This document shows positions 19,096-62,119 of a stretch of DNA of 64,000 bases, piece after piece; the stretch's first letter is position 1; each line of letters opens with the position of its first letter. Location: the NCBI RefSeq assembly GCF_014062315.1, contig NZ_JACGLT010000004.1, forward strand, positions 62,001-126,000, given 5' to 3'. Source of the stretch: Gelidibacter maritimus (GTDB taxonomy: Bacteria > Bacteroidota > Bacteroidia > Flavobacteriales > Flavobacteriaceae). The notes beneath the pieces were generated by a model that saw only the letters and a list, made by a program, of their open reading frames with translations, had not been told where the DNA came from and ran no database searches. The position numbers and the translations under genes are program-made.

Positions 19096-20334
19096 CTAAA
19101 AATAACTACTAAACCCCATATACCAAGTTGCTGCTCTTTCGGTAGGGTTGTTAAGGATATCTTTGTTCCATTCGTAACGGTAGTTGATGCGGAACACTGT
19201 TTTTGGAGTAGGTCGAAAGCTGATCCCTGGGGTAACTGCAAGGAGTTGATCGCCAATTCTTGTGTTGGTTTCCTTAAATCGACCAACATTCCAATCGACA
19301 TAATCAAATCGCGCAGCAACATTAAAGGTGGCATCCTCCCATTCAAAAATTTTGCTTTTGTAAACCGGTTGGACAATATCCATAAACACGCCACGCTGTT
19401 TATTTCCGTATTGTTGGGTATAGGTGTCTGGGGTTTCCGCCCAAATCCAAGCAGCTTCTCCCACGATATAAGTTCCAGTAGCCTTGATGGTCGTGTTCCA
19501 ATCTATAGCAAAAACATCTACTTTTGCTTGGTCTTCTACGTCTTCGCCATCATCTTGAAACTTATTATAGGTGCCTCCCATATAAGAGACCCCAATTTCT
19601 CCTATCTTTCTATTTTTTACCGCCAATTTTCCAGAAAACATGGCTTTTCCGCTTAAGTTGTCCTCAAATAAATTGTCGCCATCCTTATGTGCGGGTAGAT
19701 AGGTTTTATCCTGCTCATTGGAAATGATTCTGCTACTAAAGCCATTGGTCAAATAAGCCTCATAGCCGAAAATCCAATTGCCCGAATAGGTTTTTCCGTA
19801 CATTCCAAACCCAGCGTTAGATAGGGTAGCGGCCAACATATTGACCGCAACATCAGGGCGTTCTACGAATTCCCACTTCGGACCGTCATGGTTCTCATTA
19901 AAAGCACCAATGGGATTCATGACAATTCCACCTCGAAAGTTGAACAACGGATGAAAGGCCACATCCAAAGCGGCAAATTCAATAGCGACCTCTTTCCCGC
20001 CGTCTTCAAATTCTATTTCGGTCAAGAACTTGATACGCTCCGATATGGAAGCAGCCATAAATATGGTCAATCGCCGGGCTTGAAAAGACAAGCCATCCGT
20101 GATGCCCTCCTCGGTTCTGTGCATGGTATTGGCTTCCAAATAGCCACCCACGGTTACGGGAACTTTATCAAAGCTCAAAGTGGGTCTACTAAAAACCGCG
20201 TCCATGTTTAATTCTTGTTCGTTGTTTTCTTCACCCTTTTCGGGGTCTTCTTCCTGGGCATGTGCCGAACCGAAGCAGCATATTGCTATAATTAATAAAT
20301 TGATTTTAAGAAAGTTCAATGTAGATATTTTCAT
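19096..20334 (-). CDS. Outer-membrane porin-like beta-barrel protein
   Basis: The 412-residue protein has a cleavable signal peptide (INLLIIAICCFGSAHAQ). After an acidic stretch it shows amphipathic beta-strands: VTVGGYLEANTMHR, FQARRLTIFMAASISERIKFLTEIEFE, and the C-terminal FRINYRYEWNKDILNNPTERAATWYMGFSSYF ending in Phe, as barrel proteins do. It resembles phosphate-selective/OprP-like channels in layout. Its start lies inside the end of the Rieske gene (29-base overlap), so it is the third gene of the di-heme/Rieske operon and may supply that system's substrate. Confidence 0.75.
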   Translation of the reverse strand: MKISTLNFLKINLLIIAICCFGSAHAQEEDPEKGEENNEQELNMDAVFSRPTLSFDKVPVTVGGYLEANTMHRTEEGITDGLSFQARRLTIFMAASISERIKFLTEIEFEDGGKEVAIEFAALDVAFHPLFNFRGGIVMNPIGAFNENHDGPKWEFVERPDVAVNMLAATLSNAGFGMYGKTYSGNWIFGYEAYLTNGFSSRIISNEQDKTYLPAHKDGDNLFEDNLSGKAMFSGKLAVKNRKIGEIGVSYMGGTYNKFQDDGEDVEDQAKVDVFAIDWNTTIKATGTYIVGEAAWIWAETPDTYTQQYGNKQRGVFMDIVQPVYKSKIFEWEDATFNVAARFDYVDWNVGRFKETNTRIGDQLLAVTPGISFRPTPKTVFRINYRYEWNKDILNNPTERAATWYMGFSSYF

Positions 20335-20746
20335 TTTGAATGCTTGTTTTGTATGTTTTTAAATCTTGATCGGCTGGCCCTTCCAAAACGCCACCTTTGG
20401 TATCAAATTCACTGCCATGGCACGGACAGCTGTAAATACCGCCACCCACATTAAGCTCACAACCGCGATGCGTACACTTCATTAGTGCCGCCGTATATTC
20501 ATTGTTTCCAGTTTTATAAAGACAAATGGGAAAGTCCTCCCTAGAGGTCTTGACCAACACAAAAGTCCTATAGGTTGTGGTGTTTTTTTTGACTATCTCA
20601 AACTCCGAAAGTGGCACAATAAGGCTATTGTTTTTGATGCTGCTCGTGGCATAATAAATGCTCTCGCAAGAGGTCAGGAGGGCGGAGGCAAAGGGAAGAC
20701 CTATCAAGCCCATCCCGCAGGTTTTTAAGAATTTTTTCCGATCCAT
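20306..20746 (-). CDS. Rieske [2Fe-2S] lipoprotein
   Basis: The 146-residue protein carries CTHRGCELNV and YSCPCHGSEFD, the CxH...CxxH ligand set for a Rieske cluster. The N-terminus MDRKKFLKTCGMGLIGLPFASALLTSC looks like an export signal ending at a lipidation Cys, with a Tat-like RKKFLK motif rather than a strict RR. It is therefore probably a periplasmic, membrane-anchored electron carrier. It lies 10 bases after the di-heme cytochrome gene, so electron transfer between the two is likely. Not part of a bc1 complex here, as no cytochrome b is nearby. Confidence 0.88.
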   Translation of the reverse strand: MDRKKFLKTCGMGLIGLPFASALLTSCESIYYATSSIKNNSLIVPLSEFEIVKKNTTTYRTFVLVKTSREDFPICLYKTGNNEYTAALMKCTHRGCELNVGGGIYSCPCHGSEFDTKGGVLEGPADQDLKTYKTSIQNENIYIELS

Positions 20747-20756
20747 AAGTGTGGTT

Positions 20757-21953
20757 TTATAAGGATTCGATGAATTTTAAGACTTGATCTTTTTCAGTTT
20801 GGCTCAGGCCCAGGTACAAGTTTTTTGAATTTTCAGCTTCGCCACCGTGATACAAAATGGCTTCTTCAATGCTTCTGGCCCTTCCATCGTGGAGCAAGAA
20901 GTACTGTCCGCCTTGCGAATCCTTCGCCAAACCGATGCCCCATAATGCCGGTGTTTTCCATTCGTAAGAATGTGCGTAACCTTCGGTATAGCCATCATCG
21001 AGATCTGGTCCCATATCATGTAACAACAAATCAGTGTAGGGATGAAACTCTTTATAGGAAATGGCTACAATAGGCGAATATCCTGTAGTTAAGGTCGGTT
21101 TGTGACAAGCGGCACATTGTAGATCACCAAACAAAGCTTTCCCAGCCATGACATCTGGATCGTCTTGGTCTCTTGGGATGGGCGCTTTTAGAGTTTTTAA
21201 ATAAAACACTACGTCGCTAATGGTCTGTCGGTCTATTTCCGATGGCATTTTGTCGCCACTATACGTTTCATAAGGTTCAAAGTAGGAGGTAATACCAATG
21301 TCTTGATTATAGGCATCGGCCGTTTGATGCAGGAGATCATACATATTTCCTTTTTTTCCAAAACGTGTAATGTACTTTCCATCAACACTAATGGTTTCCG
21401 GGCGGTCCTTGACATAGTCGGGTCTGGTGTTCCAGTGTACCCGACCACTGATGCCGTCACCATCCAAATCGTCTGGGTCGGACATATCGATAAGGTCCTG
21501 ATCAGTTACCGCGTCCAAGAACCCCAAGCCCGTAACAATAGGCGCAATCAAATCGGTATGCGGGGCACCTGGTGGCAAGGTTTCTGGCTCATAACCTGGA
21601 ATGGCTCGGTTTTGTAACTGGGGGCCGCCTTGCTTCAAATACTCATTAACCCCAGGGAAGGATTGTCCAAACCTTGTGAATTTCACAAAAGGATGGCCTT
21701 TTCCGTCACCAGCGTGACAGCTCACACAACTCGTTCCGGTAAAAATTGGGCCCAACCCGGTTTCTACGGTAAATATCTGATCGTTAAAAGCCACATCGCC
21801 CTTGATAAAACGTTGGGCTTCTGCCATGGTCAAATCTTCAACAGGACCATCGAGCAGTTCATACTCTTCGGGTTCTTGTGGAGCTAAAACCTCACAAGAA
21901 AAAAATAATGGAAGTAATAATAAACTTCCAAATAGATAACTTTTCATTCTCAT
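20757..21953 (-). CDS. Di-heme c-type oxidoreductase (DHOR/DUF1111-like)
   Basis: This 398-residue lipoprotein (signal ending LFFSC, Cys20) has two heme-c motifs, TSCVSCHAG near residue 76 and LQCAACHKP near residue 280. Around them are GHPFVKFTRFGQ, GRVHWNTRPDYV and LLHDMGPDLDDGY, which fit the DHOR or thiol-oxidoreductase family related to di-heme peroxidases. It acts in the periplasm or outer membrane. It is first in an operon with a Rieske protein and a porin. The electron donor and substrate are unknown. Confidence 0.88.
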   Translation of the reverse strand: MRMKSYLFGSLLLLPLFFSCEVLAPQEPEEYELLDGPVEDLTMAEAQRFIKGDVAFNDQIFTVETGLGPIFTGTSCVSCHAGDGKGHPFVKFTRFGQSFPGVNEYLKQGGPQLQNRAIPGYEPETLPPGAPHTDLIAPIVTGLGFLDAVTDQDLIDMSDPDDLDGDGISGRVHWNTRPDYVKDRPETISVDGKYITRFGKKGNMYDLLHQTADAYNQDIGITSYFEPYETYSGDKMPSEIDRQTISDVVFYLKTLKAPIPRDQDDPDVMAGKALFGDLQCAACHKPTLTTGYSPIVAISYKEFHPYTDLLLHDMGPDLDDGYTEGYAHSYEWKTPALWGIGLAKDSQGGQYFLLHDGRARSIEEAILYHGGEAENSKNLYLGLSQTEKDQVLKFIESL

Positions 21954-22206: not shown

Positions 22207-23412
22207 TCACCTCAATTCATAAAACCCACGTTTCCCAATTTTGATCCGTAGTTCCGGTTTCAGCGGAATAGTTTGGAACGGGTCGGTCATCTTTTCGGTA
22301 TCGATTTGAATGGCACCGCTTTCAATGAGTCGTCTTAGTGCAGACTTGCTCAAATCATCTTTGAGGTGGCTGCATAAATCAATCAAACTAAGACTACCAT
22401 TTTTAGAAGTCATGGTTGATATGGCAACAGGTTCGAATACTTTCTCCGCAAAGGTTTTGTTTTGAAATTGATTGGTAAAAAAGTCTTCGGCGTTTTGGGC
22501 TTCTTCAGCATTGTGATATTGGGTAATGATGTTTTTAGCGATGATCTTTTTGATGTTCATAGGGTTTTCTCCAGCGGCCAATCGCTCTTTAAAGGCTTGC
22601 TTTTCTTCGACAGAAAAGTCGGTGGTCAATTCTAAAAACTCTGTAATTAACGTATCAGGCATAGACATTGTTTTACCAAACATCTCATTTGGGGCGTCGG
22701 TCAAACCAATGGTATTGTGCAAGGATTTGCTCATTTTTTCCTTCCCGTCCAATCCTCTCAATAGCGGCATACACATAACCGTTTGTGCTGGCATACCGTA
22801 AGTTTGTTGCAATTGACGGCCCATGGTGCAATTAAAAAGCTGGTCGGTGCCACCCATTTCAATGTCGCAGTTGATTTTAACGGAATCGTAGCCTTGCAAG
22901 ATGGGGTACACCAACTCGTGCATGGCTATAGGTGTGTTTTCGGTATAACGTTGATTGAAATCCTTACGGTGCATCAATTGGGCCACGGTTACTTTAGATA
23001 AAATCTGAATAATCTCAGAAAATGAGAGTTGGTCCAGCCAATCGGAGTTGAAAACAATCTCACTTTTTTCAACATCAATAATCTTGGATAGCTGTGCAAT
23101 ATAGGTTTGAGCATTCTGCACAACTTCTTCATTGCTCAATGGTTGTCGACTTTTATTTTTCCCCGTCGGATCGCCAATTCTTGCGGTAAAATCGCCCACC
23201 AAAATAACGATTTGATGCCCTAAATCTTGAAATTCCTTCAATTTTTTGAGCACAACTGCATGACCCAAATGTAAATCGGGGGCCGTGGGGTCAAATCCAA
23301 GTTTGATGATGAGCTGTTTACCATCTTTTTTGGCCTGTTCCAACTTTTGGTCTAATCCACCTTCTGGTAGGATGATCTCTACGTTTTCTTTTAATCTAAT
23401 TGCTGTTTTCAT
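22207..23412 (-). CDS. tyrS: Tyrosyl-tRNA synthetase
   Basis: The start is placed at 23412 (MKTAIRLKEN). A longer in-frame version would begin inside the terminator hairpin at 23433-23453. The 401-residue class I enzyme has PTAPDLHLGHAVVL (HIGH-like), YPILQGYDSV, DQLFNCTMGR and KEKMSKSLHN (KMSKS), and ends in an S4-like RNA-binding domain (SALRRLIESGAIQID). It charges tRNA-Tyr with tyrosine. A leader with its own promoter, a Tyr-rich mini-ORF and an intrinsic terminator precedes the gene and probably controls it by attenuation. Confidence 0.97.
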   Translation of the reverse strand: MKTAIRLKENVEIILPEGGLDQKLEQAKKDGKQLIIKLGFDPTAPDLHLGHAVVLKKLKEFQDLGHQIVILVGDFTARIGDPTGKNKSRQPLSNEEVVQNAQTYIAQLSKIIDVEKSEIVFNSDWLDQLSFSEIIQILSKVTVAQLMHRKDFNQRYTENTPIAMHELVYPILQGYDSVKINCDIEMGGTDQLFNCTMGRQLQQTYGMPAQTVMCMPLLRGLDGKEKMSKSLHNTIGLTDAPNEMFGKTMSMPDTLITEFLELTTDFSVEEKQAFKERLAAGENPMNIKKIIAKNIITQYHNAEEAQNAEDFFTNQFQNKTFAEKVFEPVAISTMTSKNGSLSLIDLCSHLKDDLSKSALRRLIESGAIQIDTEKMTDPFQTIPLKPELRIKIGKRGFYELR

Positions 23413-23425
23413 ATCATTTTGAAAT

Positions 23426-23453
23426 AAAAAAAGCCCGAGCAAAATGCTCGGGC
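23426..23453 (-). terminator. Intrinsic terminator (attenuator) in the tyrS leader
   Basis: On the minus strand GCCCGAGCA (23453-23445), loop TTT, and TGCTCGGGC (23441-23433) form a perfect 9-bp stem, followed by seven Ts. It lies between the leader ORF and the tyrS ATG at 23412. Since tyrS transcription must pass it, it should act as an attenuator rather than a gene-end terminator. Confidence 0.85.
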
Positions 23454-23521
23454 CTTAGGTATGTTACTATATATGGTTTGTTTTAAATCACGTTCACGTA
23501 TGCATATAACCTATCCGAGCA
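23445..23521 (-). promoter_or_regulatory. Candidate antiterminator pairing in the tyrS leader
   Basis: TGCTCGG (23521-23515) in the leader ORF can pair with CCGAGCA (23451-23445), which is the 5' arm of the terminator. TAGGT (23513-23509) can pair with ACCTA (23460-23456) next to it. That gives 12 bp with a small internal loop, mutually exclusive with the terminator stem. The first segment starts 12 bases after the tandem Tyr codons 16-17. Confidence 0.65.
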
Positions 23522-23584
23522 AATATTAGAAGTATAATAAGTGCTGAAATACGGAAGGCGCAATATGTGGTTCAAAATTTTCAT
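23483..23584 (-). CDS. Tyr-rich leader peptide of tyrS (33 codons)
   Basis: ATG at 23584 opens a 33-codon ORF ending at TAA 23485-23483. Five codons are Tyr: residues 12, 16, 17, 27 and 29, within RLPYFSTYYTS and DRLYAYV. This is about 15 percent Tyr, far above usual. The ORF starts within a few bases of the transcription start predicted from the promoter at 23593-23622, so it may be leaderless. Its place before a terminator and tyrS fits a sensor peptide whose slow translation reports low Tyr-tRNA. Known amino-acid attenuators work this way; that it applies here is inference. Confidence 0.7.
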   Translation of the reverse strand: MKILNHILRLPYFSTYYTSNICSDRLYAYVNVI

Positions 23585-23592
23585 TTCGAGGG

Positions 23593-23622
23593 CAAAGGTA
23601 GGTAAACTTATAGCATGTACAA
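23593..23622 (-). promoter_or_regulatory. Promoter of the tyrS leader
   Basis: On the minus strand TTG (23622-23620), exactly 19 bases, then TACCTTTG (23600-23593) is a perfect Bacteroidetes promoter. The expected start site is near 23588, a few bases before the leader ATG. The rest of the spacer up to 23803 has no further gene. Confidence 0.75.
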
Positions 23623-23803: not shown

Positions 23804-24625
23804 CTATCGGTCTGACCTCTTAAAATGTTTATCAAAAAACAGTAACTGATAGGCTATTGCATTTTTCCAATAGGCCCAATTGTGTTGTCCAGGACGTTCA
23901 ATATAGTCGTGTGGAATATTTCTTTCCAGCAGCTTTTCGTGCAATCGTTTATTGACTTCATAAAAGAAATCGTCAATACCACAATCGATTATAAGTTTCA
24001 GACGGTCCGCTTGCAGTTTATAAACCAGATTGATTACGGTGTGTTCTTCCCAATTGTTTTTATGCTCAGCGTAAGTTCCTAAGCGTTTAGGCAAATCCCA
24101 GTTGTTAGGAAACGGTCGAATATCAACCCCACCGCTCATACTTCCTGCAGCACCCCAAATATCTTGATGTTTAAAGGCAAGGTACAACGCACCGTGGCCA
24201 CCCATACTCAATCCAGTGATGGCGCGCCCAGATTTATCTGCTAAAGTATTATAGATGCTATCTATACTCGAGATAAGCTCTTCCGCCATATAGGTTTCAT
24301 ACCTCATTTGATCATCCACGGGACTGTCAAAATACCAACTTGTTTCGCCACCATCAGGACAAACAATAATCAGATTATAGGCATCCACATACGCTTTGAG
24401 CCTTGGCACCTTAGCAAGCCAATTGGTATGGTTGCCGCCAGCACCATGAAGTAAGTATAAAACAGGGAAGTTTAGCTTGGTGTCGGCATATTGATCTGGT
24501 AGAATGACCAAATTCGGAATGGATTTATTCATAGACGCACTCCAAACCGTAACCGTATCGACTTTGGCGGCATGGACAGTGAGGCTATAACAAGCTAACA
24601 GGAGGATCAATAATTTTTGTTTCAT
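23804..24625 (-). CDS. Secreted esterase, esterase-D/PF00756-like alpha/beta hydrolase
   Basis: The start at 24625 gives MKQKLLILLLACYSLTVHA, a normal signal peptide; an in-frame ATG 33 bases upstream adds MNTLKTSYPIT. The 273-residue product has FPVLYLLHGAGGNHTNW, the nucleophile elbow GLSMGGHGALYLAF, IIDCGIDDFF with the likely acid, and RPGQHNWAYW with the catalytic His. These make a full Ser-Asp-His triad of the esterase family that includes feruloyl/acyl esterases. It follows the EEP gene with a gap of some 50 bases and is likely co-transcribed. Substrate unknown. Confidence 0.87.
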   Translation of the reverse strand: MKQKLLILLLACYSLTVHAAKVDTVTVWSASMNKSIPNLVILPDQYADTKLNFPVLYLLHGAGGNHTNWLAKVPRLKAYVDAYNLIIVCPDGGETSWYFDSPVDDQMRYETYMAEELISSIDSIYNTLADKSGRAITGLSMGGHGALYLAFKHQDIWGAAGSMSGGVDIRPFPNNWDLPKRLGTYAEHKNNWEEHTVINLVYKLQADRLKLIIDCGIDDFFYEVNKRLHEKLLERNIPHDYIERPGQHNWAYWKNAIAYQLLFFDKHFKRSDR

Positions 24626-24677
24626 GGTAATTGGATATGATGTCTTGAGCGTATTCACGAGCTATAAAAAAGAATGA

Positions 24678-61786: not shown

Positions 61787-62119
61787 CTAAGGTTGTGATT
61801 CCAATTGCTTCATCATAATATGGACGTCATCCAAAAATTCACCTTCTTCAAATGGTAATAATTTACTGGCCAGTTCCAGCGTTCTTCGAATGTCTCTGCC
61901 ATGATCCTTGACATGGGGTGGAGAGTATGGATCACCCTGTGTGGCAAGGATACTAACATGGATTAAGGCTTCGATTGTAGTAAACAAATCGAGGTAGCCT
62001 TCAAACTGCAAATAAGAAGGTTTGAATTTGTTTTTTTGAATGTCCGATGGTCGCAACGTATCCAATTTATATTTTGCCGATTTTATTAATTTCTTGAGTT
62101 CCTTCTTTTTTATTTTCAT
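61787..62119 (-). CDS. Stand-alone copy (110 residues) of the HEPN protein's C-terminal domain
   Basis: No known family. After a Lys-rich N-terminus, the sequence SYLQFEGYLDLFTTIEALIHVSILA and LASKLLPFEEGEFLDDVHIMM lines up with the C-terminal 75 residues of the 62641 protein and with the 62135 protein. Two helices, an acidic linker and an LLP-x-EE-x2-FLD-x-V motif are shared. It is the last gene of a minus-strand unit, 15 bases after the 62135 gene. It may compete with or partner the HEPN protein through this domain. Confidence 0.7.
   Translation of the reverse strand: MKIKKKELKKLIKSAKYKLDTLRPSDIQKNKFKPSYLQFEGYLDLFTTIEALIHVSILATQGDPYSPPHVKDHGRDIRRTLELASKLLPFEEGEFLDDVHIMMKQLESQP

Follow-up and report, generated by a model that had tools for sequence, protein, structure and literature searches.

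A probable tyrosine-specific, ribosome-mediated transcription attenuator in front of a patchily distributed accessory tyrosyl-tRNA synthetase gene in Bacteroidota

Why should a short open reading frame (ORF) rich in tyrosine codons, followed by an intrinsic terminator, stand between a promoter and a gene for tyrosyl-tRNA synthetase (TyrRS)? This arrangement occurs in a 64,000-nucleotide stretch of Gelidibacter maritimus DNA (positions 62,001 to 126,000 of contig NZ_JACGLT010000004.1; hereafter the window), where a promoter of the Bacteroidota type, a leader ORF, an intrinsic terminator and tyrS follow one another on the minus strand between 23622 and 23412 (Table 1). An earlier reading of the letters alone, here called the sequence-only reading, had proposed that the locus is a ribosome-mediated attenuator working through the Tyr codons in front of tyrS, and, as far as sequence comparison can tell, this core proposal holds up well: the leader ORF, its tandem Tyr codons and the complementary segments are all conserved. 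The locus is very probably a tyrosine-specific, ribosome-mediated transcription attenuator with a nearly leaderless leader ORF, placed on an auxiliary TyrRS of patchy occurrence. It combines tandem cognate codons ahead of a TyrRS gene with an intrinsic terminator and with what modelling and conservation suggest to be a mutually exclusive antiterminator, at a spacing compatible with ribosome stalling.

Table 1. Elements of the tyrS leader region, in coordinates of the window
Feature	Coordinates	Strand	Basis or remark
TTG of the -33 region	23620..23622	(-)	Sequence; 19 bases from the -7 element
-7 promoter element TACCTTTG	23593..23600	(-)	Sequence; consensus TAHHTTTG (accessible part of PMC6847099)
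Predicted transcription start	23587..23588	(-)	Predicted from the spacing in the accessible part of PMC6847099; 4-5 nt past the -7 element
Leader ORF MKILNHILRLPYFSTYYTSNICSDRLYAYVNVI	23483..23584	(-)	33 codons and stop; sequence and conservation
Tandem control codons Tyr16-Tyr17 (TAT TAT)	23534..23539	(-)	Conserved in leaders
Segment 1 (CATATT..CCTTCC)	23553..23567	(-)	Outer part of the hairpin predicted to hide segment 2; folds with segment 2
Segment 2, antiterminator strand TGCTCGGATAGGTTATATG	23503..23521	(-)	Folding and stem search; TGCTCGG begins at 23521
Segment 3 CATACCTAAGGCCCGAGCA	23445..23463	(-)	3' part is the terminator 5' arm (23453-23445)
Segment 4, terminator 3' arm TGCTCGGGC	23433..23441	(-)	Folding and covariation
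U-run of the intrinsic terminator	23426..23432	(-)	Sequence
Accessory TyrRS gene tyrS	22207..23412	(-)	401 aa, KMSKS type; ATG at 23412

The individual elements can be read on the minus strand much as the sequence-only reading had described them: the promoter (TTG-N19-TACCTTTG), a 33-codon leader ORF that opens with the ATG at 23584 and carries five Tyr codons (positions 12, 16, 17, 27 and 29) including the tandem pair, and the terminator with its U-run, as well as a leader segment, TGCTCGG/TAGGT, complementary to the terminator's 5' arm and the bases just before it, which folding likewise confirms. The 12 bases claimed to separate Tyr17 from the antiterminator strand measure 12 nt, and tyrS does begin directly downstream of the U-run, although at 13 bases from it and not at 14. 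In Flavobacterium, according to the accessible part of PMC6847099, the -33 element is weak and the -7 element lies 4-5 nt from the start site; this published spacing places the predicted start of the leader transcript 3-4 nt before the leader ATG and would thus leave a 5' UTR of only 3-4 nt. Relatives point the same way. A strict TAHHTTTG is present within 30 nt upstream in 58 of 90 leaders; in 57 of these 58 its end lies 4-9 nt from the start codon (15 nt in the remaining one), a distance that implies a predicted 5' UTR of about 0-5 nt. The suggestion of a leaderless sensor peptide therefore agrees with promoter spacing in relatives, although 32 of the 90 leaders have no strict -7 element and the start site is a predicted one. 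The accessible parts of two reports state that in Flavobacterium johnsoniae the leader exceeds 10 nt in 87% of those predicted transcripts for which a promoter is probable (PMC6847099) and that 5.5% of mRNAs are leaderless in F. psychrophilum (PMC9723704). The phylum is described as being without Shine-Dalgarno sequences (accessible part of PMC6847099), and it is conceivable that the near-leaderless start is a means of loading a ribosome immediately without such a signal. As a separate observation, a dyad close to CAGGAAATTCCTG, possibly an operator, adjoins the -7 element in 10 of the 90 leaders, all from Chryseobacterium (L015, L022, L028, L031, L034, L035, L036, L042, L043 and L050).

How general is the leader ORF? 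In 80 loci picked by TyrRS protein similarity alone, the best 80 of 193 relatives, a leader stands in front of tyrS in every case. Three successive rules were used to recognize it. The first found 79 of the 80, one of them (L030) with the wrong ORF; the second, which looked no further than 260 bases ahead of tyrS, passed all of 83 but L037, where a leader can nevertheless be seen in the sequence; and the third passed 90 of 92 sources, all 80 loci among them, with the divergent leaders of L143 and L151 being read by eye. Although this third rule itself demanded a Tyr close to codon 16, the choice of the 80 loci had depended solely on the TyrRS protein, and a leader is missing from none of them. 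The 92 sources comprise the 80 loci, two family genomes, nine loci found with the RNA model (L143-L151) and the window, and are partly redundant, given that the TyrRS of L084 equals that of L068 and that L146 shares its genome with L019, and L150 with L016. This comparison of tyrS upstream regions thus finds both the leader ORF and its tandem Tyr codons conserved. Tyr16-Tyr17 is kept in all 66 distinct leaders and also in L143 and L151, whereas the total number of Tyr codons per leader ranges from 2 to 6, which argues that the tandem pair is the conserved sensor. Among the 66 distinct sequences of codons 1-17, Leu8 and Pro11 are as invariant as the two tyrosines, and Arg9 (65/66), Phe13 (65/66) and Asn5 (63/66) nearly so. 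A crude pairwise count over codons 2-17 of the 66 leaders gives a pN/pS of 0.145, synonymous sites being far more variable.

Does such constraint mean that the peptide itself, and not only its Tyr codons, does the work? The nascent chain L-N-x-I-L-R-L-P-F-F-S-x-Y-Y could be a true arrest peptide that acts in the exit tunnel, adding to or replacing codon starvation and perhaps sensing tyrosine or an inhibitor. For simple attenuation the Tyr codons would be enough, and trp leaders, judged by eye, vary more outside WWW, so that the retention of Leu8, Pro11 and Phe13 while synonymous sites change speaks for such a peptide, as does Ser14, coded by TCA once and by AGC or AGT 56 times among the 66 distinct leaders. 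Part of the conservation may, however, reflect RNA pairing, since particular codons are also preferred (ATA at codon 7 in 58 of the 66 distinct leaders, CTT at codon 10 in 55 of 66); the divergent leaders depart from the motif, with His9 and Thr11 in L151 and Ser12 in L143; and it is the Tyr codons of the stall site that are themselves invariant. A true arrest peptide is on the whole improbable. That the ORF is incidental and that the leader RNA is itself bound by a protein or a small molecule, in the manner of a riboswitch or of a T box, which senses tRNA directly, is far less credible still: nucleotide conservation does exceed coding need at some codons, yet the ORF is under purifying selection, its tandem cognate codons keep a narrow distance to segment 2, and a search of the window at Rfam gathering scores returned no match, T box and Bacteroid-trp (RF01692) included. 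The same search rules out a known Rfam element as the attenuator. A search of the window for tRNA genes found none.

A tyrosine-codon attenuator depends in addition on two competing helices. In the window, the terminator formed by segments 3 and 4 folds at -20.1 kcal/mol, equalled by 0 of 200 shuffles, and the antiterminator hairpin, in which TGCTCGG/TAGGT pairs with ACCTA/CCGAGCA, at -18.0 kcal/mol, equalled by 3 of 200. A stem search run without prior structure on 31 aligned leaders ranked the terminator first and the antiterminator between segments 2 and 3 (2:3) second, and the same two helices lead when group A (33 sequences of the GCTCGG type) and group B (50 Chryseobacterium-like sequences of the GTTCGGG type) are searched apart; L084, which falls in neither group, was dropped. 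The covarying stems looked for in relatives are borne out in part. The complementary segments are conserved, with 92.6% of the 2:3 cells paired as against 2-52% when the partners are slid, and the terminator, 97.6% paired, covaries, with four pairs changed on both sides, a number reached by 3 of 500 shuffles (L041 failed the terminator rule, its stem having a mismatch). The covariation score of 2:3, 0.261, exceeds the 0.184 +/- 0.015 of shuffles, but its pairs changed on both sides do not (146 of 500 shuffles had as many). Most of the 2:3 co-variation stems from the difference between groups A and B, which is one main split and thus holds few independent co-variation events.

What, then, would favour the terminator when Tyr-tRNA(Tyr) is plentiful? 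To the sequence-only reading this was not obvious; a likely answer is that the leader RNA itself pairs with segment 2, although 14 of 84 modelled regions show no switch. In the window RNA, CAUAUU..CCUUCC together with the bases round the Tyr codons folds onto segment 2, and group B also keeps two pairings that hide it, CCCGA:UCGGG and CUUCC:GGAAG. The switch was modelled in 84 distinct regions with a recognizable terminator (L041 being dropped) by equilibrium folding, which takes no account of the hiding hairpin's being the first to form. In RNA that has not yet reached segment 3, segment 2 is predicted to pair with upstream RNA at a mean of 0.70. Segments 2 and 3 pair with each other at a mean of 0.32 in free RNA and of 0.78 when everything up to base 60 is masked; blocking bases 31-60 alone suffices for a mean of 0.77, with a rise of at least 0.1 in 70 of the 84 regions. 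The full RNA forms the terminator at a mean of 0.98, and the gap from Tyr17 to segment 2 spans 9-15 nt across the set. For the window RNA, 2:3 pairing goes from 0.19 in free RNA to 0.62 with the leader blocked. Free RNA already gives 2:3 at 0.5 or more in 31 of the 84 regions, and in the 14 where no switch is modelled (a rise below 0.1 on hiding the leader) the close relatives L003, L004 and L005 are included. In a shuffle control that covered 21 of the 84 leader regions (63 left out), hiding of segment 2 reached 0.72 against 0.46 in shuffled sequences, and 2:3 pairing with the leader hidden 0.77 against 0.29. By these models the attenuator is least secure in the pairing that hides segment 2. 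Of 200 shuffles of the window RNA without the terminator, 14 fold equally well; hiding is not clearly above shuffles in L037 (7 of 20 as good) and L055 (6 of 20) and amounts to 0.26 in L061; and in L151 the CUUCC block is gone. In L084/L068, segment 2 is decayed (0.45, equalled by 5 of 20 shuffles).

These alternative pairings suggest how the leader could work. With transcription starting 3-4 nt before the leader ATG, a ribosome would load almost as soon as the RNA emerges. If Tyr-tRNA(Tyr) is ample, it would clear Tyr16-Tyr17 and depart, whereupon segment 2 would pair back onto the leader RNA, namely onto segment 1 and the region of the Tyr codons, leaving segment 3 free to form the terminator with segment 4 and to keep tyrS off. 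If Tyr-tRNA(Tyr) is scarce, be it through tyrosine shortage or because the housekeeping TyrRS is failing or inhibited, the ribosome would halt at Tyr16 or Tyr17. As a rule of thumb, a ribosome at Tyr17 covers about leader bases 31-60, which would put the stalled ribosome within the hiding hairpin and not over all of segment 1, its edge ending just short of segment 2. Segment 2, thus freed, would pair with segment 3, no terminator would form and the spare TyrRS would be made, leader and enzyme acting as one accessory unit.

Which TyrRS would be controlled in this way? The sequence-only reading had placed its attenuator simply in front of tyrS, and while its core claim survives, the gene proves to be an accessory second TyrRS, its specificity assigned by sequence family. 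The window's protein matches NCBIfam TIGR00234 at 340.7 bits (cut-off 113.8), and the nearest solved chain is 6bqy (E 6.4e-99). Besides the window's gene, its own genome has one further TyrRS-like gene, 28% identical to the first, and a TyrRS of this distant type is present in all 149 sampled family genomes, of which three (its own, one of the same genus and one other) have the window type too; all 25 carrier genomes probed hold both types. The possibility that the window's tyrS is the housekeeping gene is ruled out by this distribution. Six relatives that were checked show KMSKS in the window-type enzyme, which we take to be the 'TyrZ type', and one example of the other type (L085) shows KFGKT. 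No tandem-Tyr leader precedes the other-type, housekeeping tyrS in any of 20 parsed loci (7 of 27 were not parsed).

Leader and enzyme also share their distribution. Leader-model matches occur in 8 of 9 genomes of the window's own genus, in at least 70 of 98 of the Chryseobacterium genus, in at least 7 of 199 Flavobacterium genomes and in at least 3 of 201 of the Sphingobacterium family, counts from searches of more than 40 genomes being lower bounds because of stricter filters. In Chryseobacterium the leader and the window-type tyrS are present or absent together: of the 28 genomes without a leader match, 27 have no window-type tyrS and in the remaining one the gene is truncated by the end of a contig, and all 10 probed of the 70 leader-bearing genomes have the gene just downstream. 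This co-occurrence makes it very improbable that the terminator ends an unrelated short transcript while some other promoter serves tyrS or its expression is constitutive, even though free-RNA pairing, as modelled, predicts read-through in many relatives.

Is the pair, then, a fixed part of these genomes or a travelling one? Leader and enzyme appear to share their fate in inheritance, loss and transfer, and transfer of this module between genera is likely, to judge from gene neighbourhoods and from the TyrRS tree. Among 20 neighbourhoods extending some 8 kb to either side, 33 further gene families are present in at least two and none is present in more than four; 29 of them recur within one genus and four across two genera (two in Gelidibacter japonicus and Winogradskyella, one in Winogradskyella and Bizionia, one in Aequorivita and Profundicola). 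Downstream of tyrS the window has genes in common with three Gelidibacter, and G. japonicus and G. pelagius also have three upstream genes in common; upstream in the window a single family is shared, with G. gilvus and at another distance. The window itself has esterase-, c-type cytochrome- and Rieske-like neighbours (23804-24658 and 20306-21953), with NCBIfam matches all below curated cut-offs. In the TyrRS tree, in which 10 of 31 inner branches have support below 80, Sphingobacterium yanglingense groups with Vaginella (98/94), C. tagetis stands away from other Chryseobacterium and Gelidibacter appears in several places, partly with weak support. A plasmid search returned no close copy, the nearest TyrRS being 51% identical, and the only plasmid matches to the leader DNA, in two records, cover 31 terminator bases. 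Elsewhere in Bacteroidia, weak leader-model matches (E <= 0.01) were obtained in 163 of 395 genomes, the own genome scoring 124 bits and the next 50.2; 18 of 30 such loci (L113-L130) were screened for leader-like ORFs and two were read closely. The weak match L113 was rejected as a leader, being a bare terminator.

What might such a module be for? Perhaps it is a mobile back-up, in which a leaderless, selected Tyr-stalling peptide that may also aid arrest drives an inducible spare TyrRS and so rescues the cell when the housekeeping TyrRS fails, for instance under a natural inhibitor. In this full form the idea is possible but doubtful. If true, it would make the module the tyrosine counterpart of the indolmycin-resistance TrpRS and would show how a phylum without Shine-Dalgarno signals obtains the tight coupling that attenuation requires. 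Two matters become testable at this locus: attenuation without a Shine-Dalgarno sequence, for which near-leaderless loading is proposed, and the selection for a spare TyrRS, be it tyrosine scarcity or inhibitors.

The sequence-only reading knew of no tyrS control of this form in Bacteroidetes. No description of a tyrosine leader-peptide attenuator of tyrS was found in the literature searched, with subscription journals mostly outside its reach and supplements unread, but the setting is not without precedent: a Bacteroid-trp leader of the same logic exists in the same genome, and the accessible part of PMC9723704 reports, for a Flavobacterium, clues to leader-peptide attenuation ahead of amino-acid operons as well as structured 5' regions ahead of aminoacyl-tRNA synthetase genes, in passages that do not name tyrS. 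Bacteroid-trp (RF01692), already listed in the accessible part of PMC2864571, resembles the tyrosine leader in being a leader ORF with tandem cognate codons in Bacteroidota. It differs in its Trp codons and in showing no evident peptide similarity, and it starts mostly farther from the -7 element (9 nt or less in 7 of 28 with the motif, the start codon being chosen by script). Of 60 family genomes, 43 contain it at E <= 0.001 and 37 above the Rfam cut-off, and all 30 loci read have a Trp-rich ORF. The element in the window's own genome (L196, G000:C5:60836-60957; leader MYTTLNHTWWWNFSKQSS) is a single match and lies on another contig than the window.

Leaders of a likely second class of tyrosine attenuators, to judge from their sequences, precede phenylalanine 4-monooxygenase genes. 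Loci of this kind occur in 7 of 36 genomes of another Bacteroidia genus, and 3 of the 7 have a Tyr-rich leader and a terminator, the leaders containing FYYYY, YYYYY and NYY (L202, L203 and L205) upstream of the gene start near locus position 1500; where the promoter can be seen, as it can in two of them, 4 nt separate the -7 element from the start codon. The weak leader-model match L114 is likewise a phenylalanine hydroxylase leader. Since phenylalanine 4-monooxygenase makes tyrosine, the same regulatory logic would apply to its Tyr leader.

Outside the phylum, parts of the design recur in other combinations. Duplicated synthetases, TyrZ and TrpRS1 among them, are reviewed in the accessible part of PMC9437257, where Bacillus subtilis tyrZ is described as being under a MarR regulator and a T box. 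There, as here, a second TyrRS stands beside the housekeeping one and is controlled at the RNA level, but the leader considered here is translated and has no T box match. In Escherichia coli, pheM-pheST places a housekeeping synthetase gene under attenuation by a Shine-Dalgarno-led leader peptide, whereas the present enzyme is accessory and belongs to a phylum without Shine-Dalgarno sequences. Synthetase-gene attenuation would thus extend to tyrosine and to an accessory Bacteroidota enzyme that apparently moves between genera with its own switch. The closest analogue is the auxiliary, antibiotic-resistant TrpRS of Streptomyces (trpRS1 type), which Vecchione and Sello (2010) reportedly found to be under ribosome-mediated attenuation: both systems would put an auxiliary aminoacyl-tRNA synthetase under ribosome-mediated transcription attenuation, the one for tryptophan in an actinobacterium, the other for tyrosine in Bacteroidota, with a nearly leaderless, conserved peptide and a patchy spread across genera.
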